Source: a virus
Direction: 5' to 3' (one strand)
IMG/VR virus record: IMGVR_UViG_3300009093_000039
Location: 62,001-126,000 of that record
Length of the DNA: 64,000 nucleotides
Part shown: positions 2,056 to 16,211 of the stretch, one piece after another
How the letters are laid out: each line of letters begins with the position of its first letter
Numbering within the stretch: the first letter of the stretch is position 1
The notes under the pieces: model-generated
The model's input: the letters and a program-made list of their open reading frames with translations, nothing else
Database searches by the model: none
Told to the model about the DNA's origin: nothing
Made by a program: the position numbers and the translations under genes

Positions 2056-2424
2056 ATGACCAAACTGCAAGCAAAGTCGCGGCTCGTCGCCGCAGCCATC
2101 GCACGTGTCGTGACCGCGACCAACATCCCGTGGGACAAGACGTTCAAGAAGACGTTCACGGGAAGTCCGTCGACCGGCACCTACGGTCTCAAGACCAAGG
2201 AAGGCGGTCACGCGCAGGTGCGCGTCATGATCGACAGTGAGGACGAGACTCCGGACTCGAAGAAGCTGCGCGAGATGGACCAGAAGTATGGCGGCAACCT
2301 CATGGACGGCGTGCCGAACATCGAGCTCAAGATCGCGGGCAAGGACATCGCCCTGACCTGGGAAGAAGCCTACAACCTGGGCTTCATGCTGATGAAGAAC
2401 GCAGAGAGCGCCTACTACGGCTGA
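2056..2424 (+). CDS. Tagged small protein (KLQAKSRL N-terminus), unknown
   Basis: The 122-residue product begins MTKLQAKSRL, the tag shared by eight proteins in this window. The rest is a mixed alpha/beta domain with no recognised family. It lies between the protease and the scaffold gene, where T4-like phages encode core or internal proteins. I infer that it is packed into the prohead. The start follows the upstream stop by four bases. Confidence 0.7.
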   Translation: MTKLQAKSRLVAAAIARVVTATNIPWDKTFKKTFTGSPSTGTYGLKTKEGGHAQVRVMIDSEDETPDSKKLREMDQKYGGNLMDGVPNIELKIAGKDIALTWEEAYNLGFMLMKNAESAYYG

Positions 2425-2433
2425 AGGACGACC

Positions 2434-2697
2434 ATGAACGACATCAAGCTGAAGGCCAAGAGCCGCCTCGGTTCCGAACTCGGAGCCTCGACCTCGCTGC
2501 ACACGAGCGAGAACACCGCACCGCAGACGCAACCGGTTGCCAGGCTCGGCAACGGTGGCTCGCGAGCTGTCGGTCTGAATGCCGAACCCGCTGCCAACGC
2601 GGAAGCTCCGAACCCGATGAAGGTGGGCGCCGTTGCCCGCCTGAAGAACGCGGGCTCGAGCGCCAGCGCCGTCAAGGCGCAGAAGACGAACCAATAA
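2434..2697 (+). CDS. Tagged low-complexity protein (KLKAKSRL N-terminus), unknown
   Basis: The 87-residue protein begins MNDIKLKAKSRL, a variant of the shared tag. The remainder is rich in Ala, Asn, Ser and Gly and carries two copies of a VARL-x-N-x-G-S motif (near residues 36 and 69), so it is probably unstructured. Such composition suits a small core or internal head peptide. An aaggacg ribosome site precedes the start. Confidence 0.6.
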   Translation: MNDIKLKAKSRLGSELGASTSLHTSENTAPQTQPVARLGNGGSRAVGLNAEPAANAEAPNPMKVGAVARLKNAGSSASAVKAQKTNQ

Positions 2698-2764
2698 GAA
2701 CCGAGAAAACCTAAGTGTGCGTGCGGTCGTCGAGAGGGTCGATCGCATTCAAACGAGGGAGACC

Positions 2765-3250
2765 ATGAAGACGCACCTGAGCGATCCGTCCCAGCGTGCA
2801 TATGTCGGTACACTGGTTGCCATGCTGCAGCCAGGGCTCCGACCTCTAGACAAGGTGCAGACAGACGCGCGGCAAGCCGTGGCCGCGTTTCTGATCGCGC
2901 ACAGGGACGATGAACTCGACGCCGACCTCGTGCTGGTTGGCGACTCTTTCTCCGATCCACTTCCGATCCACTGCTTCGTTCAGGCTCGCACCGGTGTGCG
3001 ACTTGCAGACTCCAACAGGTGCTGCAAGATTCGAGGCAAGGTCTACGAGTGGCCGAATCGTCATGGCGTCACCATCAGTGGTGTAGTCATTGCACGCATC
3101 TCGGTTCGTCACCTACTTGGTGACTACGTATTACTCGCGTCGTTGGAGACCAAATTGCAGCGCCGTCACAATCGCCGGAGAGCAAGTGATGCTCCGGAAT
3201 TGAAACGGCGTTTCACACCACTCGATGCGGATGTGAGAACGCAGTTGTAA
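2765..3250 (+). CDS. Hypothetical protein
   Basis: The 161-residue basic protein is not recognised. I chose the ATG at 2765 because gaggga lies just upstream; an in-frame GTG at 2717 would add 16 residues. Its codon use is less G+C-biased than that of its neighbours and it has no shared tag, so it may be a later insertion. A strong terminator lies directly after its stop, which supports a real gene end here. Confidence 0.5.
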   Translation: MKTHLSDPSQRAYVGTLVAMLQPGLRPLDKVQTDARQAVAAFLIAHRDDELDADLVLVGDSFSDPLPIHCFVQARTGVRLADSNRCCKIRGKVYEWPNRHGVTISGVVIARISVRHLLGDYVLLASLETKLQRRHNRRRASDAPELKRRFTPLDADVRTQL

Positions 3251-3266
3251 AGCGAGATCAACGAAC

Positions 3267-3301
3267 AAGGCCGTGACTTGGCAACGAGTCACGGCCTTTT
3301 T
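3267..3301 (+). terminator. Rho-independent terminator
   Basis: A perfect 12-bp stem, AAGGCCGTGACT with AGTCACGGCCTT, encloses an 8-base loop and runs into a T-run. It closes the unit that contains the protease and the small tagged proteins. Confidence 0.8.
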
Positions 3302-3353
3302 CTCGCCCTGACTTTCGGGTGCACCTCTGATTTCGCCCGGATTCTGCGACATA

Positions 3354-3363
3354 CATTTTTATT
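3354..3363 (+). promoter_or_regulatory. Candidate late promoter element, divergent copy
   Basis: CATTTTTATT lies in an AT-rich patch (tacatttttatttt) between the terminator at 3267 and the scaffold gene. It resembles the (C/T)AATTT(T/C)AT element found elsewhere, though it fits less well. A new promoter is needed here if the terminator works. Confidence 0.35.
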
Positions 3364-3394
3364 TTGCGGGCGGGAACGCCTGAGAACGCGAGCG

Positions 3395-3430
3395 GGTTAG
3401 CCTGAGCGGACTAGTACGCTTTGGCTAACC
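3395..3430 (+). promoter_or_regulatory. Two-tier leader hairpin before the scaffold gene
   Basis: GGTTAGCC pairs with GGCTAACC (8 bp). After a 2x2 internal loop, AGCG pairs with CGCT around an 8-base loop. It ends about 20 bases before the aaggag ribosome site of the scaffold gene. It could act as a translational operator or mRNA stabiliser; there is no T-run for termination. Confidence 0.45.
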
Positions 3431-3460
3431 TACTCATCAACTTTGACCCAAGGAGTGCTC

Positions 3461-4987
3461 ATGACCGACAAGGTTCACGCAGCAGCCTCGACCACGATGA
3501 CCCATGACGGCAACGGCAAGGATCTCAAGGTCGAGCAGGGCGACCAAGGTCTCGAAAACTCGCAACAGCCGATGATGCTCATCGACCCCGCGAGCCTCGA
3601 GTCCGGCCCCACGCATTCGCAAGAGGAGCCCAAGATGCCCGGCAAGACCAAGGCCCCCACGACCGCCAGCGCCACGCCGGTGGCCGCGGCCAAGAAGAAG
3701 CCGGCGGTGCAAGCCAACGGCGCACCTGCCCAGTCGCTGAAGGACGAGACCATGCCTTCCAGCGGCAACATCTCGCAGCTCGACAACGACGTCGATCCCG
3801 GCGCCGGTTACCTGGAGAAGGAAGCGGGCATGCCCGTCGTCCACAACGCCAGTGCCGACGAAGAGAACGAGCTGAACGACGCCCCGGCGCCGGAAGCTCC
3901 GGGTGCCGACGAGTTCGAGGAAGACGACGAGTCCGATCCGATGGCCGCCAGCACCGAGTTCGACGACCTCCCGTCGCTGAGCGCCGGCGCCGACGACCTG
4001 GACGACGACGAGTTCGAGGACGTGGGCTTCGAAGCCCCGGCCCCGGAAGCCCCGGTCGAAGCCGACATGGGCGCGGGCGCGCCGAACGAAGCCCCGGCGA
4101 TGGAATGCGCCGACTTCGAAGCCGAAGCCCCGGCCGCTGCTGAAGAGCAGATGCCGCTGGTCGACGTCGACAACGTGGAAGACGGCGAAGGCAGTGATGC
4201 CCTCGCGTTCGCCTCCATCGGCGCCGCCGTGCACGTGATCCGCAGCAACCGCATCATCGCTTCGATGGGTCCGGCCGCGGCGCGCAAGCTCAACGTCACG
4301 GACGTGTACCAGACCCCGCAGTACCAGGACGTCGTCGCTCACGCGATCGACACCAAGGGCCTGCGTCGCGGCCTGGTGGCACAAGGCTTCACGCTGGCCA
4401 AGGTCACGCTGTCGGCTTCCAAGGCCACCAGCCGTGTCGTGCAGGCCAAGGTCGAAGCCGGCATGAAGTCGCGCGTCGAAGCCATTGCCAAGCAGAACGC
4501 CGCGATGGAACAGAGCCTGGCCATCGCCGCCGTCGGCATCAACAAGCGCTACTTCAAGGATGCGCCCAACCCGCTCAAGGCCGCTCTGCTCGAACAGCTC
4601 AAGCAGGCCGGCGTGCGCGGCGCGCAGTCCCTGATCTCGGCCGCGTTCGCCGAACACGGCGTCGAGTACGCGAAGTCGATCCTCACCCTCGCGCAACGCA
4701 TCGCTGCCATGCCCGAGGAAGTCCGTGACAACCACGCTGAAGCGCTGGACATGACCAGCGACGAGGACTTCGTGGATGACGCGGGCACCGAGGTCGACAG
4801 CGAAGTCGATGGCGACGACACGGAAGACGAGTTCGAGGACATCGGCGCTCCGTCGTCGGTGACCGCGGCCCTCTCGTCGGCCGGCCCCCGTCGTCTCTCG
4901 CAACCCGGTGGCAAGGTCACCGCTGGCATCTCCGACATGGCCAGCGTGAACAAGCTGCTGTTCGGCAACCAGTCGCTGGTCGGCTGA
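3461..4987 (+). CDS. Probable prohead scaffold/core protein
   Basis: I chose the ATG at 3461 (508 residues) because aaggag lies five bases upstream; an in-frame TTG further upstream overlaps that site. Roughly residues 100-245 are strongly acidic (long Asp/Glu/Ala/Pro runs). Residues about 250-420 form a helical, Lys/Arg/Ala-rich domain, and another acidic stretch follows before a short C-terminus (SVNKLLFGNQSLVG). High charge, low complexity and position just before the decoration-like and major capsid genes fit an assembly core protein removed by the prohead protease. No catalytic motif is seen. Confidence 0.6.
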   Translation: MTDKVHAAASTTMTHDGNGKDLKVEQGDQGLENSQQPMMLIDPASLESGPTHSQEEPKMPGKTKAPTTASATPVAAAKKKPAVQANGAPAQSLKDETMPSSGNISQLDNDVDPGAGYLEKEAGMPVVHNASADEENELNDAPAPEAPGADEFEEDDESDPMAASTEFDDLPSLSAGADDLDDDEFEDVGFEAPAPEAPVEADMGAGAPNEAPAMECADFEAEAPAAAEEQMPLVDVDNVEDGEGSDALAFASIGAAVHVIRSNRIIASMGPAAARKLNVTDVYQTPQYQDVVAHAIDTKGLRRGLVAQGFTLAKVTLSASKATSRVVQAKVEAGMKSRVEAIAKQNAAMEQSLAIAAVGINKRYFKDAPNPLKAALLEQLKQAGVRGAQSLISAAFAEHGVEYAKSILTLAQRIAAMPEEVRDNHAEALDMTSDEDFVDDAGTEVDSEVDGDDTEDEFEDIGAPSSVTAALSSAGPRRLSQPGGKVTAGISDMASVNKLLFGNQSLVG

Positions 4988-5017
4988 TCTCCTTCCCAAC
5001 TTTCCAACGGAGTCCAC

Positions 5018-5698
5018 ATGCTCTACCTGCCTCTCTCGAAGTTCCCGGACAGCAGCGAAACCGTCGTCGCTTCCGGTGCCGCCATCACCGCCGAGGGCCA
5101 AGCCCTGGTCCGCGCCGCGGGCGCCACGTCCACCGGCGTGACCCCGTCGCAAGGCACGAGCGGCGAGCTCTTCGCCGGCTTCTCGTTCGCCGGCGTCAGC
5201 GCTGCCCCGTTCGCGGCCGCGTACCTGTCCAAGGTCGAGAAGTTCATCGTCCCGTCCTCGGGCACCGTGCAGCTGGCCTTCGCGCCGCAAGCCGGCCAGG
5301 TCTTCGTCTTCGACTCGACCACCGGCGCCGCCGTCCCCATCACGGGTGGCGTGACCGTCGTGGGCAACACCGTCAACGGCCTGACCTCCGGCGACACCGT
5401 GCTGGTGACCTACAAGTACCCGGCCTCGGTGATCCAGGCGCGCGCCATGCAAGGTGACGTGCAGCCCGGCGGCTACGCCGGCGCCTACGTCGGCCAGATC
5501 GGCCTCATCAAGCGCGGCCTGATCTACACCGACCAGTTCGACGCGTCGGTCAACTGGTTCTCGCCCGCCTCGATCAACCTGGGCGCCGGCGGCATCCTGA
5601 CCGTGGGCGGCTCCGGCGTGGCCCTGGTCGGTGCCTACGTGGTCGCGCAGCCGACGCAGGACGTGCCGTTCCTCGGCATCGAGTTCAGCGCCGCCTGA
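5018..5698 (+). CDS. Probable capsid decoration/head structural protein
   Basis: The 226-residue protein is rich in Gly, Ala, Val and Ser and looks all-beta. It has no charged low-complexity regions and lies directly upstream of the major capsid gene, a usual place for head decoration (cement) proteins. An acgga ribosome site precedes the ATG. No specific family is recognised, and a minor capsid protein is the main alternative. Confidence 0.6.
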   Translation: MLYLPLSKFPDSSETVVASGAAITAEGQALVRAAGATSTGVTPSQGTSGELFAGFSFAGVSAAPFAAAYLSKVEKFIVPSSGTVQLAFAPQAGQVFVFDSTTGAAVPITGGVTVVGNTVNGLTSGDTVLVTYKYPASVIQARAMQGDVQPGGYAGAYVGQIGLIKRGLIYTDQFDASVNWFSPASINLGAGGILTVGGSGVALVGAYVVAQPTQDVPFLGIEFSAA

Positions 5699-5740
5699 TC
5701 GGTCGTCTGACACACATCAACCAATCAGGAGTTTCCCAAC

Positions 5741-6814
5741 ATGCGTACCCAAGTGAACATCCGCGCGGCCAAGTCGCCCGTGCTCGCCACCGACCTCCGC
5801 CCGGTCGACGGCGGCGAATCCTTCGTCGGCCGCTACCAAGGCTCCGGCAAGGGCGAGCTGAACGCCAGTTCGAAGCGCGACCTGCTCGAGCAGCAGCGCA
5901 AGTTCCTGACCGCAGCGTCGGCCGGCAACATGCTCGCGATCACGGCTTCCGAGTCGAAGGACCTGGTCCGTGCCGCGTTCAACAGCCCCGAGGCCCACCG
6001 CGTGCTCGGCGAGAAGATCAGCGAGTCGCTGTACATCACGGCGAACCGTCAGGGCTTCATGCGCAAGTACCTGGCCAAGATCGACGTCGAGATGGGCTCG
6101 ATCCCGCGCTTCCCGCTGCGCAACAAGAACGTGACCGCGGTCTGGTCCACCAGCCCGACCAAGGTCGAGTCGCAGATCACCCGCGACAAGTGGTTCACCC
6201 CGCCGGAACTGACGGTCGTGGCCCGTCCGTTCATCCCCCAGGTGGAACTGAACCAGTCCAGCGGCGACGTGCTGCAGGAGAAGTACATCGAGGCCGTCGA
6301 GGCCACGATGGTGGCGGAAGACCGCCTCTACTACAACCAGCTGCAGAGCCTGGTCGGCGTCGACAACAACCTGACCATCGTGTCGGGCCAGCTGACGCCG
6401 TACAGCCTGATGACGGTCGTGACCAACGTGACCCGCTGGGGTCTGAAGGGCGCGCACCTGCTGATGGCGACGGACCTGTGGCAGGACGTGGTCGGCAACT
6501 CCGACTTCTTCACCGCCATCGACCCGGTGGCCCGTCACGAGCTCCTGCTCACCGGCGAGCTGGGCACGATGTACGGCATGACCGTCACGTCGGACGCGTT
6601 CCGTCATCCGGAGCACAAGGTCCTGGGCCAAGGCGAGTTCTTCGTGATCTCGGACGCCCTGAACCACGGCGCGTACTCGGATCGCGGCGGCCTGCAATCG
6701 ACCCCGATCGACATCTCGATCGAGAAGATCCCGGGTCGCGGCTTCGTGCTGCACGAGGCCCTGGCCGTGTCGGTGGCGAACAGCCGCTCCTTCGCGAAGG
6801 GCTACCGCCTGTAA
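5741..6814 (+). CDS. Major capsid protein
   Basis: The 357-residue protein has the pattern of an HK97-fold capsid protein: a charged helical N-terminal arm, a long central region (about 110-260) with LTVVARPFIPQVEL and a helix EKYIEAVEATMVAEDRLYY resembling the long spine helix, and a C-terminal beta-rich segment. It is preceded by a strong tcaggag ribosome site and flanked by scaffold and decoration-like genes upstream and tail genes downstream. A hairpin follows, suggesting its own transcript end. Its N-terminal segment (NIRAAKSPVL) weakly echoes the tag of the small head-region proteins. Confidence 0.85.
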   Translation: MRTQVNIRAAKSPVLATDLRPVDGGESFVGRYQGSGKGELNASSKRDLLEQQRKFLTAASAGNMLAITASESKDLVRAAFNSPEAHRVLGEKISESLYITANRQGFMRKYLAKIDVEMGSIPRFPLRNKNVTAVWSTSPTKVESQITRDKWFTPPELTVVARPFIPQVELNQSSGDVLQEKYIEAVEATMVAEDRLYYNQLQSLVGVDNNLTIVSGQLTPYSLMTVVTNVTRWGLKGAHLLMATDLWQDVVGNSDFFTAIDPVARHELLLTGELGTMYGMTVTSDAFRHPEHKVLGQGEFFVISDALNHGAYSDRGGLQSTPIDISIEKIPGRGFVLHEALAVSVANSRSFAKGYRL

Positions 6815-6826
6815 TCGAATCGGCCG

Positions 6827-6859
6827 GGGAGGGCTTAGTCACTAGTTGACGGCCCTCCC
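6827..6859 (+). terminator. Hairpin after the major capsid gene
   Basis: GGGAGGGC and GCCCTCCC form an 8-bp stem around a 17-base loop, starting 13 bases after the capsid stop. There is no clear T-run, so it may be a weak terminator or a 3' mRNA-stabilising stem. Confidence 0.5.
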
Positions 6860-6906
6860 TGGTTGGTCCGAAACAGACGCAACCCAACGCAACCAGGAGA
6901 ACTGAC

Positions 6907-7437
6907 ATGGCCCAGCCGATGCTGAAGTACAACCGCGCGCTCGACTGCCTGGCCCTGGCCGCGCAGGCGATGCATCGCGACGGTGACGAAGTCCTGGCGG
7001 CGCGCCTCTTCGCGAAGGCGATGAAGCAGCCCGACATCCAGGCCGCGATCAACACGATCGAAGCGACGAACCGCGTGGCGTTCGCACAACTCGAGGCCTC
7101 CAACAAGGCCGCGAAGGAAGCGACGCCCGCGACCAAGCCCGTGACGACCACGGCGGCTGCGAAGCCCGCCGCGGCTCCGACGAAGCCCACGCAAGCCAAG
7201 CCGGTCTCGGCCGCGAAGCGTGTGCAAGCGGCGGAGGAAATGGTCGAAGAAGCCCCGGTCGCCGAAGAGGTGATCGAGGAGGAGCCCGTCATCGAAGCCG
7301 ACGCTTTCGACGGTGACCCGCTCGACGACGTCGTCGAGGACGAAGAAGTCGACGAAGCCCCGGTCGAGCCGGTGGTGGCCGGCCGCCGCATGGCGGAAGT
7401 CCTGTCGTCGATGAAGCGCACCCGCGACGGCAAGTAA
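6907..7437 (+). CDS. Hypothetical virion-region protein with acidic C-terminus
   Basis: This 176-residue protein has a helical N-terminal half (MLKYNRALDCLALAAQ and onward), a Lys/Ala/Pro/Thr-rich linker, a strongly acidic stretch (about 110-160) and a basic end (MKRTRDGK). The ribosome site aggaga precedes the start. It is the last gene before two terminators, in one unit with the capsid genes. Its role is unknown; an assembly cofactor or minor head protein would suit the position. Confidence 0.6.
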   Translation: MAQPMLKYNRALDCLALAAQAMHRDGDEVLAARLFAKAMKQPDIQAAINTIEATNRVAFAQLEASNKAAKEATPATKPVTTTAAAKPAAAPTKPTQAKPVSAAKRVQAAEEMVEEAPVAEEVIEEEPVIEADAFDGDPLDDVVEDEEVDEAPVEPVVAGRRMAEVLSSMKRTRDGK

Positions 7438-7465
7438 GCACGAGCCGCACCCTACGGTGCTTTGG

Positions 7466-7490
7466 AAAGGGAGCCCTCGTGCTCCCTTTT
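7466..7490 (+). terminator. Rho-independent terminator
   Basis: AAAGGGAGC and GCTCCCTTT form a 9-bp stem with a 6-base loop and a short T-run. It is the first of two stacked terminators closing the capsid unit. Confidence 0.75.
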
Positions 7491-7498
7491 CTCACATG

Positions 7499-7529
7499 GG
7501 TCGCAGCATTTAACTATGCTGCGACCTTT
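7499..7529 (+). terminator. Second terminator of the capsid unit
   Basis: GGTCGCAGCAT and ATGCTGCGACC form a perfect 11-bp stem with a 6-base loop, followed by TTTG. With the hairpin at 7466 it makes a tandem terminator just before a candidate promoter. Confidence 0.7.
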
Positions 7530-7535
7530 GTCCCC

Positions 7536-7545
7536 TAATTTTATG
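7536..7545 (+). promoter_or_regulatory. Candidate late promoter element, copy 2
   Basis: TAATTTTATG lies directly after the double terminator and is identical to the copy at 42470. Only ten bases separate it from the start codon at 7556, so if it is a -10-like element the transcript would be nearly leaderless. Confidence 0.45.
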
Positions 7546-7555
7546 GGCATCGAAC

Positions 7556-8209
7556 ATGGACGCTAAGCCGCAAACCGAAATCGACCCAGTAGACAAGTTC
7601 GTGCGGGCGGGCTTCGAGCAGCGGATGCAGAGCCAGTTCCGTGCCCCTGCCATTTGGGTTCAGAGCCCTGACGCGCTCCCGACCCTGAAGACGATGCTGG
7701 GTAACCGTCAGCCCGAGTATCCGTACCTGTTCCTCTACGAGTCCGGGTCCAGCCCGAACACGGAGTCGTATCCGACCAACCGCCTGGCTCGACATGGTAT
7801 CCCCGTGACAATGAACCAGGACGGCAAGCAGTTCCAGACCGTGAAGGTGCTGCCGACGAACTTCGAGGTCGAGGTCACGTACATCACCGACAAGTTCCAA
7901 GGCAATGAGGACTCGGTCGACTTCTTCAAGCGCCGGTGGTGGTTCACGCGGCGCAATGGTGCGCTGAATTTCGGCATCGACTATGGACTCTCCAAGCTCA
8001 CGGTCACATCGACCTTGACGGACAGCCTGCAGATCCCGAAGCGCGAGAATCCGGCAGAGACCGAGTCCGTCTACACGGTCACCACCAACGTCACGATCCA
8101 CGGTTGGCTCTCCGAGGCGTTGCTGATGACGCGCGGTCGGATCAATCAGGTCGTTCTTGCTGACGGCCCGCCACCGAAGCCCGGCGAGCAGTTCTTCCCC
8201 TTCAACTAG
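7556..8209 (+). CDS. Candidate tail terminator/completion protein
   Basis: The 217-residue protein precedes the sheath gene. Its central part (about residues 95-195) reads as beta strands around TNFEVEVTYITDKF, RRWWFTRRNG, LTDSLQIPKRE and TTNVTIHGWLS. This resembles the strand order of tail sheath-terminator proteins such as T4 gp15, which sit between head and tail. The likeness is structural intuition, and other neck or tail-completion roles are possible. There is no clear ribosome site and no in-frame alternative start nearby upstream. Confidence 0.6.
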   Translation: MDAKPQTEIDPVDKFVRAGFEQRMQSQFRAPAIWVQSPDALPTLKTMLGNRQPEYPYLFLYESGSSPNTESYPTNRLARHGIPVTMNQDGKQFQTVKVLPTNFEVEVTYITDKFQGNEDSVDFFKRRWWFTRRNGALNFGIDYGLSKLTVTSTLTDSLQIPKRENPAETESVYTVTTNVTIHGWLSEALLMTRGRINQVVLADGPPPKPGEQFFPFN

Positions 8210-8220
8210 AGGACCCCAAA

Positions 8221-8538
8221 ATGGACGTTCTGAACCTGAACAAGCACGCGGTGCCGGTCAAGCTGGTCACACCCGACGGCAAGGTCGACTACGCAACCGT
8301 GGCACCCAGCCGCCGCGTCACGATCCCGGACGGCTACAAGGTCAACACGAACTGGCTGAGTCAGCAAGGCTCCAAGGTCAAGACCTTCACCGACTCGAAG
8401 TCGGAGACCCCGATGGAAATCCCGCAGGCACCGATCAGCGACGCGGCCGCCGCAGCCTCGAAGTCGAGCGCGGCCGTGAAGATCACCGCGGTGGCCAAGG
8501 CTCCGGCTCCCGTCACCAACGACACGAAGGCTGAATAA
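8221..8538 (+). CDS. Small virion-region protein, unknown
   Basis: The 105-residue protein has a compact beta-rich first half (about 1-60: VPVKLVTPDGKVDYATVAPS) and an Ala/Ser/Lys-rich flexible tail. It sits two bases before the sheath gene. The aggacc ribosome site supports the ATG. A neck or tail accessory part is inferred from position only. Confidence 0.6.
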   Translation: MDVLNLNKHAVPVKLVTPDGKVDYATVAPSRRVTIPDGYKVNTNWLSQQGSKVKTFTDSKSETPMEIPQAPISDAAAAASKSSAAVKITAVAKAPAPVTNDTKAE

Positions 8539-8540
8539 TC

Positions 8541-10478
8541 ATGACCCAGCTCGTTTCCCGCGCATCGGACATCCGTGTCACCGAGATCAACCTCAGCTCC
8601 GTCATCACCAGCACGTCGGTCACGGTGGCTGCGGTCCCCGTGATCTCGAAGCAAGGTTCGACCCATCCCCTGCTGTTCACGAACGCTCGGGACTGGCTCG
8701 ACGAATACGGCAACCCGGACCCGTCGATCTCGATGACGGTCCAGGCCGGCCTGAACTACTTCACCGAAGGCAACCAGGCGTGGGGTCTGCGCGTCGTCGG
8801 CGCCGGTGCCGAATACGCCGGCGTGCTGATGTACGCCAACAGCTCGGGCACGACCGTGCTGAAGGGTCAGGTCACGGCCGACCCGCTGAACACGGACCTG
8901 AGCACCCTGGTGAGCCCGGGTGAAAAGGCCATCGCTCTGTTCTACCCGAACCGCGGTCCTGGCTCCTACGGCAACAACTACTCGATCGAAATCGCGACGG
9001 CGGCCGTGCAAGCCCCGACCGGCCTGGATGCCAACGCGCAGACCGGCAGCGGCTCGATGTCGCCTGCGACCTACACGTACCAAGTGTCGGCCCTGAGCCC
9101 GACCGGCGAATCGCTGGCCAGCTCGCAGGTGCAAGTGGTGCTGGGCGGCCTGTCGGTCCCGATCGCCTCCATCACCCTGACCTGGGATGCGGTCGACGGC
9201 GCCATCGGCTACAACCTGTACGGCCGTGCCACGGGCGGCACCTACGGTCTGGTGGCCACGGTCGGCGCCTCGACTCTGACGTTCGTGGATGACGGCACCG
9301 TCGTTCCCGACACTGGACACCAGCCGATCACGGACGGCGGCCTGGTCGTCGGCTCGGACGAGTTCATCGTCTACGTCACGGACAACACGCAGCCGAACCA
9401 AGGCGCGCTGGAAGCCTGGACCTGCACGCTCAAGCAGAAGATCGGGTCCGACGGCACGCAGCTGGAACTCGAGCACCACATCAACCCGTTCTCGTCCTAC
9501 ATCCAGGTGGTGTCGAACGTGCCGGCGCTGACGTCGGTGCCCGCAATCGGCAACGCAGGCCCGCAGGCCATGACCGGCGGCGCGTCGGGTTCGACCCCGA
9601 CCAGCTACCAGATCGCGGCTGCGATGCAGGTGTTCTCGAACAAGAGTCTGTACGGCACGAACGTGTTCGTGAACGCGGGTATCGCCGACCCGATCTACCA
9701 GCTGGCGATCGACTCGCTGGTGCAGGCCCGCGGCGATGCCGTGTCCCTGATCGACGTTCCCTCGGCCAGCCAGAAGTTCCAGGCTTCGATCGACTACCGC
9801 AACCTGAGCCTGAACCTCAACTCGACGTACAGCGCGCTGTTCGGTCCCGACCTGCTGCAGGCGGACCTCATCAACGGCATGCAGGTCTACAACCCGCCTT
9901 CGGGCTGGGCGGCTGCCCTGTGCGCGCGTACCGATCGCGTGGCGAACCCCGCGTACTCGATCGCCGGCCTGAACCGCGGCCTGCTGAACGTGCTGAAGCA
10001 GCGCTACGCCTACGATGACGGCGAAGCCACGGCCCTCTTCAACGCGCAGGTGTCCTACACCCGCACGTTCGTGGGTCAAGGCATCGCGCTGTGGGAGCAA
10101 CTGACGCTGGCGGGCCAGCAGTCGGCCCTGTCGTGGCTGTCGGTGCGTCGCATCACGAACGTCATCAAGGTCTCGCTGTACAAGTTCCTGCTGTACTCGC
10201 TGCAAGAGATGGACACGGACGCCGTCCGTCGCCAGATCATCAACAGCTGCAGCCAGTACCTGGATGCCGTGGTCCGTGCCAACGGCCTGAACTCGTACAC
10301 GGTCGAGTGCGACAACGGCAACAACAGCGCGGCGACGGCCAACGCAGGCGTGCTCGTGGTGACGGTGGTCCTCGTGCCGAACATCCCGATCCACGAGATC
10401 CAACTGCAGATCGTGATCTCGAAGCAGGGCGTGACGTTCAGCGAAACCCTGTCGCAGGTCAACGGCAACACGCAGTGA
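8541..10478 (+). CDS. Contractile tail sheath protein
   Basis: The 645-residue protein begins with the typical sheath N-terminus (SDIRVTEINLSS, then a strand and the linker to the inner domain). Its C-terminal part (about 470-630) has the conserved sheath core, with NPAYSIAGLNRG and YAYDDGEATALFNAQ, and a region contacting the tube. It forms the contracting outer sleeve that drives the tube into the host. Residues about 155-262 look like an inserted fibronectin type III-like domain (PTGLDANAQTGSG, YTYQVSALSPTGES, ITLTWDAVDGAIGYNLYGR), which the minimal sheath lacks. The next gene is the tube. Confidence 0.9.
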   Translation: MTQLVSRASDIRVTEINLSSVITSTSVTVAAVPVISKQGSTHPLLFTNARDWLDEYGNPDPSISMTVQAGLNYFTEGNQAWGLRVVGAGAEYAGVLMYANSSGTTVLKGQVTADPLNTDLSTLVSPGEKAIALFYPNRGPGSYGNNYSIEIATAAVQAPTGLDANAQTGSGSMSPATYTYQVSALSPTGESLASSQVQVVLGGLSVPIASITLTWDAVDGAIGYNLYGRATGGTYGLVATVGASTLTFVDDGTVVPDTGHQPITDGGLVVGSDEFIVYVTDNTQPNQGALEAWTCTLKQKIGSDGTQLELEHHINPFSSYIQVVSNVPALTSVPAIGNAGPQAMTGGASGSTPTSYQIAAAMQVFSNKSLYGTNVFVNAGIADPIYQLAIDSLVQARGDAVSLIDVPSASQKFQASIDYRNLSLNLNSTYSALFGPDLLQADLINGMQVYNPPSGWAAALCARTDRVANPAYSIAGLNRGLLNVLKQRYAYDDGEATALFNAQVSYTRTFVGQGIALWEQLTLAGQQSALSWLSVRRITNVIKVSLYKFLLYSLQEMDTDAVRRQIINSCSQYLDAVVRANGLNSYTVECDNGNNSAATANAGVLVVTVVLVPNIPIHEIQLQIVISKQGVTFSETLSQVNGNTQ

Positions 10479-10486
10479 TGAGCCCT

Positions 10487-10512
10487 GGCCGGTCCTTTGA
10501 TTAGGACCGGCC
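10487..10512 (+). terminator. Intercistronic hairpin between sheath and tube
   Basis: GGCCGGTCC pairs perfectly with GGACCGGCC around an 8-base loop, between the two tail genes. There is no T-run. It may give partial termination or RNA processing that sets the ratio of tube to sheath mRNA. Confidence 0.5.
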
Positions 10513-10535
10513 TCCAACTCTCTCAAGGAACAGAC

Positions 10536-11054
10536 ATGGCACGTACCAGCTACGACAACATCCAGAACCTGCCCGACGCCGCGCAGTCCTGGAACTTCGA
10601 CCTCTTCTTCCCCACGGTCCCGGGCACCTCCGGTATCGCGCGGTCGATGACGTACAAGTGCAAGACCACGGCCCTGCCTTCCAGCTCCATCGAACCCGTC
10701 GGCATCGAGCTGCACGGCATGAAGAAGCAGGAAGCCGGCCGTGCCACGTACCAGCACACGTTCAACGCCACGATCATGGAGACGGTCGACTACTCGACCT
10801 ACATGGCGATGCGCGCGTGGCGCGACTTCCAGCGCTCGTGGAAGAACAACACGGGCTCGAACTCGGCGGCCTACAAGGTCAACCTGGAGCTCGACGTCTA
10901 CGACAACGCCGGCGCCATCAGCCAGACGATGATCCTCGCTGGCTGCTTCATCACCGAAATCGCGGACGTGCAGTTCGACGGCGCGAGCTCGACGGTGATC
11001 GACCTGAGCCTCACGTTCAGCTTCGACTACATCAACGACGGCAACACGTTCTGA
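10536..11054 (+). CDS. Tail tube protein
   Basis: The 172-residue protein has the size and order of T4 gp19-like tube proteins: an N-terminal DLFFPTVPG segment, a central YKCKTTALPSSS region and a final run of beta strands ending LTFSFDYINDG. It would form the inner tail tube through which DNA passes. An in-frame start at 10497 lies inside the upstream hairpin; the ATG at 10536, preceded by caagga, is preferred. It lies directly downstream of the sheath gene. Confidence 0.85.
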   Translation: MARTSYDNIQNLPDAAQSWNFDLFFPTVPGTSGIARSMTYKCKTTALPSSSIEPVGIELHGMKKQEAGRATYQHTFNATIMETVDYSTYMAMRAWRDFQRSWKNNTGSNSAAYKVNLELDVYDNAGAISQTMILAGCFITEIADVQFDGASSTVIDLSLTFSFDYINDGNTF

Positions 11055-11062
11055 GGCCGATC

Positions 11063-11386
11063 ATGAAGTTGCACGCGAAGTCGCGGCTGCTGGCGTTGCA
11101 GGACCTCAAGACCCTGGGCCCGCGGCTGCTGGAAGTCCTGAAGGACACGTTCGAGACCGCTGACTTCGAGCTCACGCACAACGGGCGCCAGGAGATTAAG
11201 AGCAACGGCCGTCTCTCCGATGGCATGTTCAAGATCGGCGCCCGCGACCTGAACAAGCTGGTGTTCACCCACCTCGGCTACAAGATCGCGGACCACGGGT
11301 CCAAGATCACGTGGTCGAAGAAAGGCGAGCCCGGCTGGGTCATGGAGCACATCGGCGGCAAGGTCCACCTCCACGAGGAACTGTGA
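11063..11386 (+). CDS. Tagged small protein (MKLHAKSRL), unknown
   Basis: The 107-residue protein begins MKLHAKSRLLAL, one of the eight tagged proteins. The body is a small alpha/beta domain with GPRLLEVLKDTF and a C-terminal run rich in His, Lys and Gly. The ATG was chosen because it restores the tag; a longer in-frame reading upstream overlaps the tube gene. I infer packaging into the head by analogy with T4 internal proteins. Confidence 0.65.
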   Translation: MKLHAKSRLLALQDLKTLGPRLLEVLKDTFETADFELTHNGRQEIKSNGRLSDGMFKIGARDLNKLVFTHLGYKIADHGSKITWSKKGEPGWVMEHIGGKVHLHEEL

Positions 11387-11751
11387 TGAAGCTGCAGGCG
11401 AAGGCCAGACTGAGCTCGCTGATCTCCATCCTCGCCTCCGTCGTCAACACAACTGATCGGCCTCCGTCGACCTACATGGACGAAGCGGAGGCCGACCACC
11501 AGTTGCCGCGTGAAGACGAAGTCGACGATGAGTTGATCGGCAAGGGCATGGATGATGCCGACAACCCGGGTAACACCGGGTATCAGCCGGATGATGAGAA
11601 CCAGAACCTCATCAAGCAGAGTGACGCCGAGATCATGCACAGCGAACCCGGCCCCATCTCGATGGGCATGGGTCTCGGTGCTGGTCATCGACTTCTGTCG
11701 ACGGGTCCTCTGCAAGCCATGCCCGATCTCGGAGACTATCAGACCCTTTAA
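11386..11751 (+). CDS. Tagged acidic protein (MKLQAKARL), unknown
   Basis: The 121-residue protein begins MKLQAKARLSSL and shares one base with the upstream stop (TGATG). After about residue 30 it is Asp/Glu/Asn-rich and probably unstructured, ending in a Gly/Met-rich segment. It has no recognised domain. It belongs to the tagged set and may be internal to the head or removed during maturation. Confidence 0.6.
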   Translation: MKLQAKARLSSLISILASVVNTTDRPPSTYMDEAEADHQLPREDEVDDELIGKGMDDADNPGNTGYQPDDENQNLIKQSDAEIMHSEPGPISMGMGLGAGHRLLSTGPLQAMPDLGDYQTL

Positions 11752-11761
11752 GGAGGACACG

Positions 11762-12454
11762 ATGAGCGACCCCATCCAGTGTTTCATGCTCGAAGTCGTG
11801 GAGCGCGAGACCGCGTTCGTATGCGCTTCGCTGAAGAGCGAACTGCGCGGCGGCTCCGTTCCAGCCGAACAGCGAGCATGCCCGAAGATGCCCGGTCGCC
11901 TCCATCGTGCAGAGATCCAGGTGCCTGTCGGCTTCGGTCTCTCCAACGTCTTCACGGGCGCCGACGACACCCTCTACGTGCAGCTGAGTGACAAGCGCGT
12001 CCAGCTGTGCTGCGACGGCTGCGGCATGGCCTTCAAGGCTGACGAGTCGGACGCATGGTCTTCCCATCCGACTCGCTGGTACCGCAATCCGCGCACGGGC
12101 AAGGAAGGCTCGAACGCATATCAGGTGGGGTCACCTGGCGCCATCTACAGCGCGGACTGGCTCGACGATGAAGAGCACATGTCCGACCTGCTCAGCGACT
12201 ACTACCGTCAGCAGTGGCGCGGCAGGCGCAAGCCCCTGACGGTGGTGCTGCCCGACAACACGCACTGGGTCGTGGATCAGAAGTCCACGATCCGCGGTCA
12301 ACCGAATCAATGGGGTCCCGGCTGGACCATCACGGGCGATGCACCGTACCTGACTGCGAGCCCCAGCATCGACACGAACACGTACCACGGCTTCCTCCAG
12401 TCGGGTGTCCTCACCCCTGACCTCGAAGGTCGTACATACACAACCAGGACCTGA
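11762..12454 (+). CDS. Conserved phage hypothetical with CxxC motif
   Basis: The 230-residue protein starts at the ATG after aaggagg. C83-C84-x-x-C87 in LCCDGCGMAF looks like half a metal knuckle. The C-terminal half carries PLTVVLPDNTHWVVDQ and TASPSID followed by YHGFLQSGVLTPDLEGRTY. These are features I recall from a widespread family of uncharacterised phage proteins that often precede genes of unknown function. It lacks the N-terminal tag of its neighbours. Confidence 0.65.
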   Translation: MSDPIQCFMLEVVERETAFVCASLKSELRGGSVPAEQRACPKMPGRLHRAEIQVPVGFGLSNVFTGADDTLYVQLSDKRVQLCCDGCGMAFKADESDAWSSHPTRWYRNPRTGKEGSNAYQVGSPGAIYSADWLDDEEHMSDLLSDYYRQQWRGRRKPLTVVLPDNTHWVVDQKSTIRGQPNQWGPGWTITGDAPYLTASPSIDTNTYHGFLQSGVLTPDLEGRTYTTRT

Positions 12455-12456
12455 CG

Positions 12457-13308
12457 ATGAAGCTGCAAGCCAAGTCCCGTCTGTTGGCGTTCGCGCCAAC
12501 GTCCGAGCTGACCGATGTGATCCGCACGCGGGTCGCTGAAGCGCTCCACAAGGTGGGGCTCAAGGTGCAGCCGCAGCACAGCGCCGGGATCTACCCCACC
12601 ATCCTGTACTTCGACTTCGAGTCCAGCTCGTGGGCCATCTCCATCGGTGAGGTCCAGCATGGCGTGGCACAGCTCTTCGTCGAGACGCCACGCGAGATCA
12701 CGAACGAAGCGCTGCGGCTCTTCACTCGCACCAAGAGCTGGGACGGTGTGGAGGCTGCGAACGAGCTGGTTCGACGTTGCCTCGCGATCCTGAAGAAGAC
12801 GGGCATCCACTTCGAGCTCGAGCAGCCGAACGTGATTCACAAGCTGGTGACGATCGCCGGCACGTTCCCGGTCCCGAAGCAGCTGAAAGCCGCCAAGCAA
12901 CAGCTGGCTTACCACTTCACCGAAGGCAAGAACGTGCGCAAGATCGAGCGCGAAGGCCTGAAGCTGACGAAAGAAGGCCAGGGCCTGTGGAAGGGCAGCC
13001 TCAAGTACGGCAAGCCCTCGATCTTCCTGACGATGTCGAAGAAGCCCGAAGTCGTGTCCCAGGTCATGGGCATGCTGCTGTCCAAGCGCTGGTCGCTGGA
13101 GGAGTGGGGCGAGTTCGATGAGTCGAAACTTCGTGCTGTCAACGCGCAGTATCGTGCGGTCACGATCGATCTCGCGAAGGTCCCCGGCGCGGTGCTGTAC
13201 CAGGACGAGCTGGTCGATGAGCCGGAGTTCAAGTTCATCACCGTGCCCGTGCCGCCCGAAGCCATCGTCTCCTTTTTCATGGTCGAACCCAACTGGTGGA
13301 ATGCCTGA
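12457..13308 (+). CDS. Tagged protein with ADP-ribosyltransferase-like C-terminal domain
   Basis: The 283-residue protein begins MKLQAKSRLLAF, the clearest copy of the shared tag. Residues about 148-275 read like an ADP-ribosyltransferase fold: H153 in AYHFTEGKNVRKIEREGL, then the strand SIFLTMSKK (188-196), the strand YRAVTIDLAKVPGAVLYQDE (232-251) and E257 in EPEFKF before VPVPPEAI. This is the H-aromatic-E order of DarT/tRNA phosphotransferase-like families. Residues 20-140 are unassigned. A packaged, tagged ART would parallel T4 Alt. If the fold is wrong it remains a tagged unknown. Confidence 0.55.
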   Translation: MKLQAKSRLLAFAPTSELTDVIRTRVAEALHKVGLKVQPQHSAGIYPTILYFDFESSSWAISIGEVQHGVAQLFVETPREITNEALRLFTRTKSWDGVEAANELVRRCLAILKKTGIHFELEQPNVIHKLVTIAGTFPVPKQLKAAKQQLAYHFTEGKNVRKIEREGLKLTKEGQGLWKGSLKYGKPSIFLTMSKKPEVVSQVMGMLLSKRWSLEEWGEFDESKLRAVNAQYRAVTIDLAKVPGAVLYQDELVDEPEFKFITVPVPPEAIVSFFMVEPNWWNA

Positions 13309-13309
13309 G

Positions 13310-14290
13310 ATGAAACTCGAAGCTGAGACGCGCCTCATGCTCATGGAGGCGGCCGACGTCACCTATGAGAAGTACGCGACAGTGGTCGAAGCCCTGGCGC
13401 GTGATCCGCACGAGCTGCAAGCCTTCGAGTTCAAGGTGCCGGGTGCACTGAAGAAGCTGTGGTCCGAGCTGAAGGAAGTCGGAGCACTGCTGGCCGAGTC
13501 GGCTCACATCGGCTGGGACTCCATCGTCCAGGCCTTCAAAGAGAAGTCGGTGTTCCGACTCCTGAAGGGTGTGGGCTTCTCGATCGCCAAGCTACTCAAG
13601 GCCGTCAAGAAGGCGATGGCACTTCCGGCGACCGCGTTGTTCGCGGCCTTCGATGATCTGATCGAGACCTTCGGTTCCTCGAAGTTGATGCAGCATCTCG
13701 ATGTCCACGAGCGCGTGAAGAAGCTGGACGAAGTGATCCATCGCCACCCGGTGCTGACCAAGGTCACGGGTCTTGCAGTCGCAGGTTTCCTCGTGTGGGG
13801 ATTCCTTCACGCGTCGTCGACCGGTGACGCAGACTACGACCTGGGCATCGTCGACGCGGTCATCAACTGCGTCAAGGGTGACTACAGCCTGGCCGACATG
13901 TTCGCCTCCAAGCAGGGCCTGAAGGACATCAGTGTCCTGCTGTTCGGTCTCGCGTCCGGTGGTCTCGGCATCACGGCCTACGGCGCCTCTCATGTGGAAG
14001 GACTGCTGCACTTCCTCGGCTCCCACTCGGGCGACGCTGCATCCCTCATGGTCGCGCTCTTCTACGCGGCGGCAAAGAAGCTGCACCTCAAGATCAACTA
14101 CGAGCACATGCCGCAGCCGCTGCACGGCGCGCTCGTCATCGATCCGAAGGAGCCGCACGGTCGGACCCACAAGTGGTTCCACTCGCTGCCTGCCGAGGAT
14201 CGCAAGGCCTACATGAAGAAATACCCGGGTACGAAATTCGGGCGCGAGCACAAGCTCATCCTCCCCAAGCATCAAGGAGCACACAAGTGA
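13310..14290 (+). CDS. Tagged membrane-associated protein, unknown
   Basis: The 326-residue protein begins MKLEAETRLMLM, a weaker form of the tag; an ATG three codons earlier (MPE...) is also possible. Residues 45-120 form amphipathic Lys/Leu/Ala helices. There are likely membrane segments at about 150-168 (VTGLAVAGFLVWGFLH) and 203-225, and a further hydrophobic helix at 240-255. The end is basic and His/Lys-rich. A virion protein that inserts into the host membrane at DNA entry is one reading. The next gene overlaps its stop by four bases. Confidence 0.6.
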   Translation: MKLEAETRLMLMEAADVTYEKYATVVEALARDPHELQAFEFKVPGALKKLWSELKEVGALLAESAHIGWDSIVQAFKEKSVFRLLKGVGFSIAKLLKAVKKAMALPATALFAAFDDLIETFGSSKLMQHLDVHERVKKLDEVIHRHPVLTKVTGLAVAGFLVWGFLHASSTGDADYDLGIVDAVINCVKGDYSLADMFASKQGLKDISVLLFGLASGGLGITAYGASHVEGLLHFLGSHSGDAASLMVALFYAAAKKLHLKINYEHMPQPLHGALVIDPKEPHGRTHKWFHSLPAEDRKAYMKKYPGTKFGREHKLILPKHQGAHK

Positions 14291-14541
14291 CCAAGCTCAA
14301 GGCCATCTGGCTGGCTCTCAAGCACTACCTGTTCGGCGTCTTCATCTGCCTCGACTACCTGGCCAACGCCCTGTTCCTCCGCGGCAACCCGTGGGAGACG
14401 ATGTCGTCGGTGGCGTTCCGCAAGCACCGCGACAAGAAGAAGTTCGGGTTCATGATGTACATCATCAACGGCCTGGCCTTCTCCAGGACGCACTGCGCCG
14501 ACGCGTACAAGGCCGACCGCGACCGTCAGCTCCCGATCTGA
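14287..14541 (+). CDS. Small conserved phage membrane-like protein
   Basis: The 84-residue protein uses GTG overlapping the upstream stop (GTGA). It has a hydrophobic first half (IWLALKHYLFGVFICLDYLAN) and the pattern LANALFLRGNPWETMSS...HC, which I recall from short uncharacterised proteins of many phages. Its role is unknown; translational coupling to the membrane protein upstream suggests linked function. Confidence 0.6.
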   Translation: MTKLKAIWLALKHYLFGVFICLDYLANALFLRGNPWETMSSVAFRKHRDKKKFGFMMYIINGLAFSRTHCADAYKADRDRQLPI

Positions 14542-14547
14542 AGACCG

Positions 14548-14557
14548 CAATTTCATC
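14548..14557 (+). promoter_or_regulatory. Candidate late promoter element, copy 3
   Basis: CAATTTCATC sits within gaccgcaatttcat, identical over 14 bases to the copy near position 17. It is 70 bases before the gene at 14627. Confidence 0.45.
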
Positions 14558-14626
14558 GCGTACCAAGGCGACTCCCGTATCGGATAGCCTCTCATTCTGT
14601 CTAACCAGTCACAACGGAGAAACTCC

Positions 14627-15379
14627 ATGTCCGATTTCCAGACCAACACCGTCGCCATCACCGACTACCGCGTCAAGACCCCGACGCTGGCCAAGGTGAT
14701 CCTCAGCTACACCGGCAAGTTCGGCCGCGACTTCATGCACGACGAAGTCGCCCGCATCTTCGACAACCAGGTCTCGCTGGTCAAGTCGTCGGTGAAGAAG
14801 ATCAAGGAAGGCGTCGCCGTCGGCTTCGTCAAGGCGAACCGTGCGATCCGCGTCGTCACCGAGAAGGAGCTCAAGGCCAGCTACCGCGTCATGGGCTCGA
14901 ACATGCTCATGGACGACGCCGACAAGTCGCTGTGGGAAGTGCGCCAGGGTGCCGGCGGCAACAAGTTCCTCGCCCGCCACGGCCAGGAAGACCTGACGGC
15001 GCTGGTGCAGGCCTCGCGTCTCGCCCGTCCCGATGTCCCGCGCCTGTCGCAGCTGACCATCGCCAAGGCCGGCCGCAACGAGCTGGTGGCCTTCGTCGAC
15101 GCCGAAGGCGACGTCGATCACGGCTTCACCGTCGCGTCTTCGGACGACAAGGTCAAGGTCGTGTCGTTCGCGCGCAAGGCCGTGGCCACCGTCGACTACG
15201 ACAACGTGGTGTCCATCACCCCGGTGCAGATCGACGCCGGTGTCCACGCGGCTGTCATGGCGAGCCTGACGCCCGAGGAAAAGAAGGTGGCCAACGCCTA
15301 CTGGACGCGTCTCTACAGCTACGACCCCGAGTACATGCGCGAGACCATCCGCCAGGTCAACGAAGGCACGTTCGCCTGA
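14627..15379 (+). CDS. Probable virion structural protein
   Basis: The 250-residue protein is preceded by a candidate promoter and a strong acggaga ribosome site and followed by a terminator, so it forms its own transcription unit, as expected for an abundant product. It is mixed alpha/beta with GKFGRDFMHDEVARIF near the start and a helical C-terminus (LTPEEKKVANAYWTRLYSYD). I do not recognise the family. High expression and codon use like that of the capsid genes suggest a virion component. Confidence 0.6.
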   Translation: MSDFQTNTVAITDYRVKTPTLAKVILSYTGKFGRDFMHDEVARIFDNQVSLVKSSVKKIKEGVAVGFVKANRAIRVVTEKELKASYRVMGSNMLMDDADKSLWEVRQGAGGNKFLARHGQEDLTALVQASRLARPDVPRLSQLTIAKAGRNELVAFVDAEGDVDHGFTVASSDDKVKVVSFARKAVATVDYDNVVSITPVQIDAGVHAAVMASLTPEEKKVANAYWTRLYSYDPEYMRETIRQVNEGTFA

Positions 15380-15387
15380 TCTCCGAT

Positions 15388-15408
15388 GCGGGGCCCTAGC
15401 GGCCCCGC
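15388..15408 (+). terminator. GC-rich terminator hairpin
   Basis: GCGGGGCC and GGCCCCGC form a perfect 8-bp stem around CTAGC, nine bases after the stop codon, followed by TT. Confidence 0.65.
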
Positions 15409-15433
15409 TTCCACATCCGAAGCGGAGAACAGA

Positions 15434-15733
15434 ATGGAAATCCAACTGCAAGCGAAGGCGCGACTCTCGGCTTTCAAGATCATGGCCGACGACATGCCGG
15501 ATCACCTCAAGCACCTCGCGCAGTCGATGGCGCAGAAGCTGGGCGTCGGCCTCAAGGGCGTCGAGCGTCTCGGCACCGACGAAGCCGCGATCTACTTCGA
15601 GGCGCCGTTCAAGCCCGAGGCTCTGGAAAAGGTCCCGCACAAGGGACGCCAGTACTACCCGGACGGCAACGGCGAGTACCTGGAGATCGAGCACTGGTTC
15701 CAGAAGGAATCGATCCTCTACGTCGCGCTCTAA
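15434..15733 (+). CDS. Tagged small protein (IQLQAKARL), unknown
   Basis: The 99-residue protein begins MEIQLQAKARLSAF. It has a helical first half (MPDHLKHLAQSMAQKLGVGL) and a beta-rich second half. The ATG at 15434 was chosen because it gives the tag and follows gcggagaac. It is the seventh tagged protein along the window and lies directly before the eighth. Confidence 0.65.
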   Translation: MEIQLQAKARLSAFKIMADDMPDHLKHLAQSMAQKLGVGLKGVERLGTDEAAIYFEAPFKPEALEKVPHKGRQYYPDGNGEYLEIEHWFQKESILYVAL

Positions 15734-15743
15734 GGAGAACGAG

Positions 15744-16211
15744 ATGGACATCCAAGCGAAGGCCCGGCTGCAGGAAATGCAGCGACTCGAGGCCAAGCCG
15801 CAGGGTTCTGCCGAGGACGCGAAGGCGGCCGTCGAGCAGGCCTTCGCGTCCTCCGGTCTGAAGGTCAAGATCGAGGTCGATGCCTGGGGTGACCTGGCCT
15901 GTTCGTGCGAAGTCACGTTCGGCGAGAACCGAGTCGTCACGTTCGACATCAGTCTCAACGAAAAGGGCAAGGGTTCCAAGTCTCTCGACCTGGACTTCAG
16001 CGCCAAGCCGGAGCTGAGCTTCAGCGAGCACATGGAAGATGTGGTGTACGGCATCGACCAGAAGGAGATCGCTGACATCGGCAAGATCATCAACTACGCG
16101 GAAGGATTCGCGCAGCGGGTGGACAAGGAGGTCGAAGCCTACACCGCCTGGTGGATGAAGTTCAGCCTGGCGCTGCGCAAGCTCAACCAGTTGTCCGAGG
16201 ACAATAAGTGA
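15744..16211 (+). CDS. Tagged small protein (IQAKARL), unknown
   Basis: The 155-residue protein begins MDIQAKARLQEM and follows a strong aaggag site. Residues 25-115 look like a compact alpha/beta domain (LKVKIEVDAWGDLACSCEVTFG), followed by a helical C-terminus. It has no recognised family. It overlaps the next start by four bases. Confidence 0.65.
   Translation: MDIQAKARLQEMQRLEAKPQGSAEDAKAAVEQAFASSGLKVKIEVDAWGDLACSCEVTFGENRVVTFDISLNEKGKGSKSLDLDFSAKPELSFSEHMEDVVYGIDQKEIADIGKIINYAEGFAQRVDKEVEAYTAWWMKFSLALRKLNQLSEDNK

Follow-up and report, generated by a model that had tools for sequence, protein, structure and literature searches.

The stretch analyzed here (the window) comprises 64,000 nucleotides, positions 62,001 to 126,000, of the 139,364-bp virus record IMGVR_UViG_3300009093_000039. 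Between a prohead protease gene (1263-2051) and position 16211, it encodes eight proteins that begin with variants of one short peptide, hereafter the tag. In window coordinates all eight tagged open reading frames (ORFs) lie on the plus strand; in the list below and throughout, G000 denotes the present record and other G numbers the records of relatives.

2056-2424, plus strand: tagged ORF of 122 amino acids (aa), reading MTKLQAKSRL; tag at 2056..2091, MTKLQAKSRLVA
2434-2697, plus strand: tagged ORF of 87 aa, starting MNDIKLKAKSRL; tag at 2434..2475, MNDIKLKAKSRLGS
11063-11386, plus strand: tagged ORF of 107 aa; tag at 11063..11095, MKLHAKSRLLA; G009 orthologue also tagged
11386-11751, plus strand: tagged ORF of 121 aa; tag at 11386..11418, MKLQAKARLSS; G009 orthologue also tagged
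12457-13308, plus strand: tagged ORF of 283 aa; tag at 12457..12489, MKLQAKSRLLA
13310-14290, plus strand: tagged ORF of 326 aa; tag at 13310..13342, MKLEAETRLML; G009 and G010 orthologues tagged
15434-15733, plus strand: tagged ORF of 99 aa, reading MEIQLQAKARL; tag at 15434..15472, MEIQLQAKARLSA
15744-16211, plus strand: tagged ORF of 155 aa; tag at 15744..15776, MDIQAKARLQE

The starts and sequences are exactly those given in a preliminary description of this DNA, which had also correctly placed the eight genes in a head/tail block downstream of the protease. Its further claim, that the bodies behind the tag differ completely, holds at the level of sequence, as no pair of the eight bodies matches in blastp at E<1e-3; the only fold model, an AlphaFold prediction of the 12457 protein made without an alignment, has a mean predicted local distance difference test score (pLDDT) of just 31. 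Searches of Pfam and PHROGs gave no match for six of the eight proteins and weak matches for the remaining two.

The same description took the set to be these eight, and here it fell short, since more tags are present in the record, upstream of both the window and the protease. When the entire record was scanned in six frames for the pattern [LIVM]xA[KRE][SATGQN]R[LIVM], 13 matches began at most a few codons away from a start codon, namely the eight known and five upstream of the window, all on the same strand; one of the five, MSHASLELQAKSRL, has a longer lead. Looser inspection yielded two more, MTKVKQLHAAARL and MTKPKELRAATRL, of which MTKPKELRAATRL belongs to a Nudix protein. The tags upstream of the window, at least six, stand in the record at 39573, 40131 (MSHASLELQAKSRL), 42127, 42771, 55178 and 55378, with a degenerate one at 45482. 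When the pattern was relaxed to [LIVM]x[AS]xxR[LIVM] near an ATG with a Shine-Dalgarno sequence, 13 ORFs in the record matched (at least two of which look like chance), whereas six control patterns, made by permutation or alteration, matched one to four each. Trained on nine other genomes, a profile recognized 11 N-termini in the record and none of 227 internal windows.

The consensus was derived from ten records: the present one, BcepSauron (nearly whole), Motura and seven from IMG/VR. Together they hold 103 curated tagged proteins (approximately 4-19 per genome record), whose bodies without the tag fall into 63 families by blastp. The tag is about 11 residues long, with the consensus M-K-(x-K)-[L/I]-[N/Q]-A-[A/K]-x-R-L-L-A. 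When the proteins are anchored on the core, K occupies position -1 in 46%, L/I position 0 in 91%, Q/N +1 in 62%, A +2 in 99%, A/K +3 in 81%, R +5 in 100%, L +6 in 98%, A +8 in 70% and A/T/S +9 in 58%; because the proteins were selected by the core pattern, the percentages at 0, +2, +5 and +6 partly reflect that choice. The core starts at residue 3-7 in 98 of the 103 proteins, at the extreme N-terminus. Independent of the selection criterion is a leave-one-genome-out test (training on nine genomes, applied to the tenth), in which the profile recognized 104 of 3,038 N-termini in sum, against 2 of 2,297 internal windows from the same ORFs. The tag is thus restricted to the N-terminus, and the profile from the full set also recovered N-termini beyond the original pattern, such as MATNAAQRLKAS.

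Several observations show that the conserved entity is the peptide. Six different codons (CGC, AGG, CGG, CGT, AGA, CGA) encode the invariant Arg in the present record, the Ala and Leu codons of the tag are likewise variable within single genomes, and the 30 bases upstream of tagged genes have only a Shine-Dalgarno sequence in common. Since synonymous codons are free and the upstream DNA is unconserved, selection acts on the peptide, which makes an RNA element unlikely, as well as a 5' end copied in the recent past.

The tag is also a removable add-on, gained or lost as a unit. In the present record it precedes a complete oligoribonuclease, whose domain begins behind the tag at residue ~24-28 (residues 28-206 align with Orn residues 8-172). 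G004 and G001 encode tagged homospermidine synthases; the Motura orthologue (33% identity) is untagged, starts with MQGRNVFIIGCGSIGQ at the first beta strand and is encoded outside the head block. The 'ELPKFRY' family (280-465 aa) occurs in all ten records, with the tag and a basic linker in G001, G002, G003, G004 and G007 and without the tag in the other five. Finally, contig L021 matches the window at 99.6% identity across 11 kb and has approximately 375 extra bases at the ATG of the 11063 gene; these form a complete tagged gene of 125 aa (L021:15323-15700; MKLQAKSRLLASGVDPK...), and the gene that follows keeps its body, with its tag written in other synonymous codons. In this natural swap a cassette carrying the tag was gained or lost, and its junctions fall at the tag.

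By major head protein (MCP), the nearest phages are the Burkholderia phages BcepSauron and BcepSaruman (68%) and Achromobacter phage Motura (55%). The preliminary description had suggested looking for the tag beside the head genes of other phages, and it is indeed found in many of 44 IMG/VR loci that share this head protein. When 2.9 million viral contigs were scanned twice with exact patterns, ten stretches emerged. Nine of these are tagged and belong to or resemble the clade, comprising members already known, a new contig of 155 kb that encodes this head protein, fragments near-identical to the window, and fragments with clade genes. In the tenth, L148, no Shine-Dalgarno sequence was seen in front of a tagged ORF. 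In these scans the tag is therefore confined to the BcepSauron/Motura clade or to fragments with clade genes. A scan of 85,000 prokaryote genomes gave eight matches that look like chance; three follow an ATG that opens a readable ORF, in no case behind a Shine-Dalgarno sequence.

In the two annotated genomes of the clade, tagged genes are confined to late structural blocks. All 16 tagged genes of Motura lie in such blocks (76 of 346 genes; hypergeometric P = 8e-12), as do all seven of BcepSauron (75 of 447 genes; P = 3e-6), where blocks and tagged counts were set by the author from the annotations after the tags were known. Pfam and PHROGs recognize few of the tagged bodies: Nudix (6-7), DUF3175 (6), saccharopine-dehydrogenase fold/homospermidine synthase (2), RNase_T exonuclease (1), a ribosome modulation factor (RMF) domain (1), a T7-gp0.7-kinase-like protein (1) and others, with an ATLF match at E=6e-4. 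The functions in host RNA, nucleotides, kinase activity and ribosomes fit delivered takeover factors.

Some members of this payload deserve separate mention. The RMF domain (E=1.7e-5) is found in a tagged Motura protein of 78 aa (L091:2823-3056, minus strand), which from its sequence is possibly a delivered ribosome-hibernation factor. The kinase-like protein has an untagged homolog in the present record (L007:4949-5482, plus strand, record position ~44949; phrog_15752, E=2e-10), whose G004 homolog is tagged. In Motura, an unannotated tagged DUF3175-like gene occupies 177347-177691 on the minus strand, a region for which the record lists small hypothetical genes on the other strand.

The reading best supported by these data is prohead targeting, since the tag matches the capsid-targeting sequence (CTS) of phage T4 in length, position and exchangeable use. 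The T4 CTS is MKTYQEFIAE-like, and compared with it by eye the tag shows no likeness beyond the initial M-K and the final hydrophobic-x-residue end. In both systems a short N-terminal peptide (10-19 residues in T4, on IPI, IPII, IPIII and Alt, where it is cut by gp21) stands on unrelated, fast-evolving proteins, with a conserved prohead protease nearby or in the head module. In contrast to T4, the peptide here is MKLNAAxRLLA-like, marks approximately 4-19 proteins per record, and belongs to another phage lineage with another protease, with packaging and cleavage as predictions. For IPIII, the first ten residues suffice for targeting to the prohead core, residues 4 and 7 serving in targeting and 8 and 10 in gp21 cleavage, and among T4 relatives the packaged set varies while CTS-like ends are kept (PMC9026906).

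Other systems offer partial parallels. Encapsulin cargo-loading peptides are short and load unrelated enzymes into an HK97-fold shell; in contrast to the tag they are C-terminal as a rule, uncleaved, and not known from a phage context. In phage P1 the first 30 residues of DarB suffice for a reporter to enter the head; DarB thus has an N-terminal signal that works as proposed here for the tag, but the P1 Dar proteins have no consensus (PMC9024508), whereas here one consensus marks dozens of proteins. In the giant phiKZ-type phage SPN3US, the prohead protease cuts off N-terminal propeptides for which a role in targeting ejection proteins has been proposed (PMC5694885), as on gp45, gp47, gp53, gp54 and gp225, and the paralogues gp53 and gp54 have 15 N-terminal residues in common (PMC5694885; PMC10052503). 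Those propeptides differ from the tag in being mostly 111-254 residues long, in having no short consensus across unrelated proteins and in being cut after a motif ending in E. The full-text literature consulted and passages of a 2026 jumbo-phage review contain no report of the tag, most subscription papers lying outside this scope.

We therefore propose, with a probability of about 0.6, that the tag is a T4-CTS-like prohead-targeting propeptide, unrelated to that of T4 in sequence, which carries a large exchangeable payload. By analogy it would work like the T4 CTS without being homologous to it in sequence. Late in infection, the 10-13 N-terminal residues (M-K-x-K-[L/I]-[N/Q]-A-[A/K]-x-R-L-x-A), probably a short amphipathic helix, would bind a common partner in the assembling prohead, either the scaffold/core or the inner face of the MCP, and unrelated proteins would thereby be taken inside before the shell closes. 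The prohead protease would probably then cut at the tag or immediately behind it; our guess, with I-x-E at T4 residues 8-10 as the model, is a cut after L-x-A (L9-x-A11). Cleavage is plausible given the presence of a prohead protease and the example of the relative PaBG, whose head protein is shortened by ~20% through processing (PMC7412058). The freed payload would remain with the DNA and be injected into the next host; it would be lineage-specific and exchangeable, including small unknown proteins, Nudix, oligoribonuclease, kinase-like and RMF proteins, and others. As regards the T4-like head packaging put forward in the preliminary description, a shared, selected peptide on non-homologous late-block proteins stands, and we infer the capsid destination, the core receptor, the cleavage, the presence in virions and the injection.

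A number of observations weigh against this proposal. No virion proteome of any tag-bearing phage was found in the literature, and the presence of tagged proteins in virions is a prediction. The residues after the tag are conserved only as A/S/T, and any cleavage site is putative; the tag ends in L-x-A in ~70% and in L-x-E in ~9%, and +8 is thus mostly A, versus the E of T4 or phiKZ-type cleavage sites. The likeness between the tag and the N-terminus of the MCP, noted as faint in the preliminary description, is downgraded to suggestive only, as the alignment needs a one-residue gap and ranks in the top 0.5-11% of N-termini. The polyamine enzyme homospermidine synthase is no obvious injected factor. 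The kinase homologs of G000, G009 and G010 and half of the 'ELPKFRY' orthologues are untagged, and the tag is therefore dispensable for the function of these proteins. Finally, in 41-kb regions around the MCP genes of Lu11, GR7B, Aura, SNUABM_35, Afa-NA1 and Xhv-12, no tag was found above background; a pairwise comparison of N-termini in these six distant relatives gave no analogous shared N-terminus near the MCP genes either.

Of the alternatives, the one that survives best, which we nevertheless consider unlikely, is that the tag sorts proteins to another destination in the infected cell, such as the membrane, a replication compartment or a phage protein complex. Basic amphipathic N-terminal peptides frequently serve as sorting signals, and metabolic enzymes such as homospermidine synthase are part of the payload. 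However, DNA polymerase, ribonucleotide reductase and helicases are absent from the matches, and the tagged genes are located in late head/tail blocks. A phiKZ-type phage nucleus is an unlikely destination, because no tubulin-family (PhuZ) gene was found in six clade genomes by a search whose control was positive in 13 of 14 cases, chimallin itself not being searched.

Rather improbable is a role in assembly only, in which tagged core proteins nucleate the prohead and then leave without being injected. The small size, charge and fast evolution of some tagged proteins and the weak likeness of the MCP N-terminus to the tag would suit scaffolding, but complete enzymes are tagged and the tagged set differs per phage, unlike core assembly genes. 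We consider it very improbable that the shared N-terminus is a recombination scar or the common 5' end of a cassette with no function as a peptide: the L021 cassette has its junctions at the tag, as such a scar would, but residues are fixed while synonymous codons are free, the upstream DNA differs, and the peptide is retained across phages with ~52-70% MCP identity. An RNA or nascent-chain element controlling late-gene translation would match the position of the tag, always at the very start of the ORF, but is given next to no weight, as the majority of late structural genes are untagged and nucleotides in or around the tag are not conserved, for which reason the RNA element was rejected.

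How giant phages choose their ejection proteins, and by which signal, is a long-standing question that the tag makes testable. Most jumbo-phage proteins are functionally uncharacterized, and if prohead targeting is correct, the tag marks the virion payload across an entire clade and predicts dozens of candidate host-takeover or counter-defense proteins. The T4 style of loading unrelated proteins would then have arisen a second time, on a different sequence and with a broader repertoire.

The tagged genes are accompanied by the following features of a myovirus head/tail block, which also includes the tail sheath and tail tube genes:

1263..2051, plus strand: head maturation (prohead) protease (phrog_18299, E=4.8e-77; aligned with the BcepSauron and Motura orthologues)
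3443..4987, plus strand: 514-aa protein (phrog_20988, labelled ATPase), between the protease and the decoration/MCP genes
5018..5698, plus strand: virion structural protein (phrog_16710)
5741..6814, plus strand: major head protein (phrog_2522, E=2e-87), N-terminus MRTQVNIRAAKSPVLA, with weak likeness to the tag
16758..18164, minus strand: BCS1-like AAA+ ATPase (Pfam AAA, E=1.2e-10; best PDB match mitochondrial chaperone BCS1, E=1.3e-15), adjoining the tagged block

The protease is the candidate enzyme for tag removal, and the position and acidic N-terminal half of the 514-aa protein suggest, without proving it, a scaffold or core protein. The N-terminus of clade major head proteins contains K[VI]xVRA[AS]KTP[MV]VAAS, and F[LIM]xA[AS] occurs near residue 58; as a speculation from sequence, the two may be related sites. 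Phage BCS1 has been suggested as a possible mover of folded proteins destined for the head (PMC7824862), and the ATPase of the window is possibly a translocase acting on folded cargo. A broader and more tentative proposal, which we hold at somewhat less than even odds, is that a clade of jumbo phages loads up to ~20 interchangeable effectors per virion via a cleavable N-terminal zip code, swapping tag-plus-gene cassettes, that the injected proteome can be read from sequence, that the tag offers a ready-made loading signal, and that the BCS1-like translocase may act on this cargo.

Among individual tagged proteins, that at 12457 shares its N-terminal half with a tagged G010 protein, their C-terminal halves being dissimilar, and its matches in viral contigs are near-copies and otherwise one short distant match. 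Its C-terminal half gives the impression, unproven, of an ADP-ribosyltransferase-like motif (YHFT...GL...IFLT); a like impression for Motura 143580 (Arr-ms match at E=0.18, no other homolog found) is likewise unproven. A second motif, approximately W[WF]xxLxxxQKxxYxxxHPxSKYA, which no Pfam family accounts for, links ten tagged proteins, either directly after the tag or at the C-terminus; carriers include window 13310-14290, L010:33276-35003, L067:4953-5558, L068:16848-17780 and others. The string STSLH in the 2434-2697 protein also occurs in the N-termini of BcepSauron gp084 and Motura gp186, the relatives' protein encoded between the protease and head genes, and the window protein may be a split-off N-terminal piece of a protein of this type.

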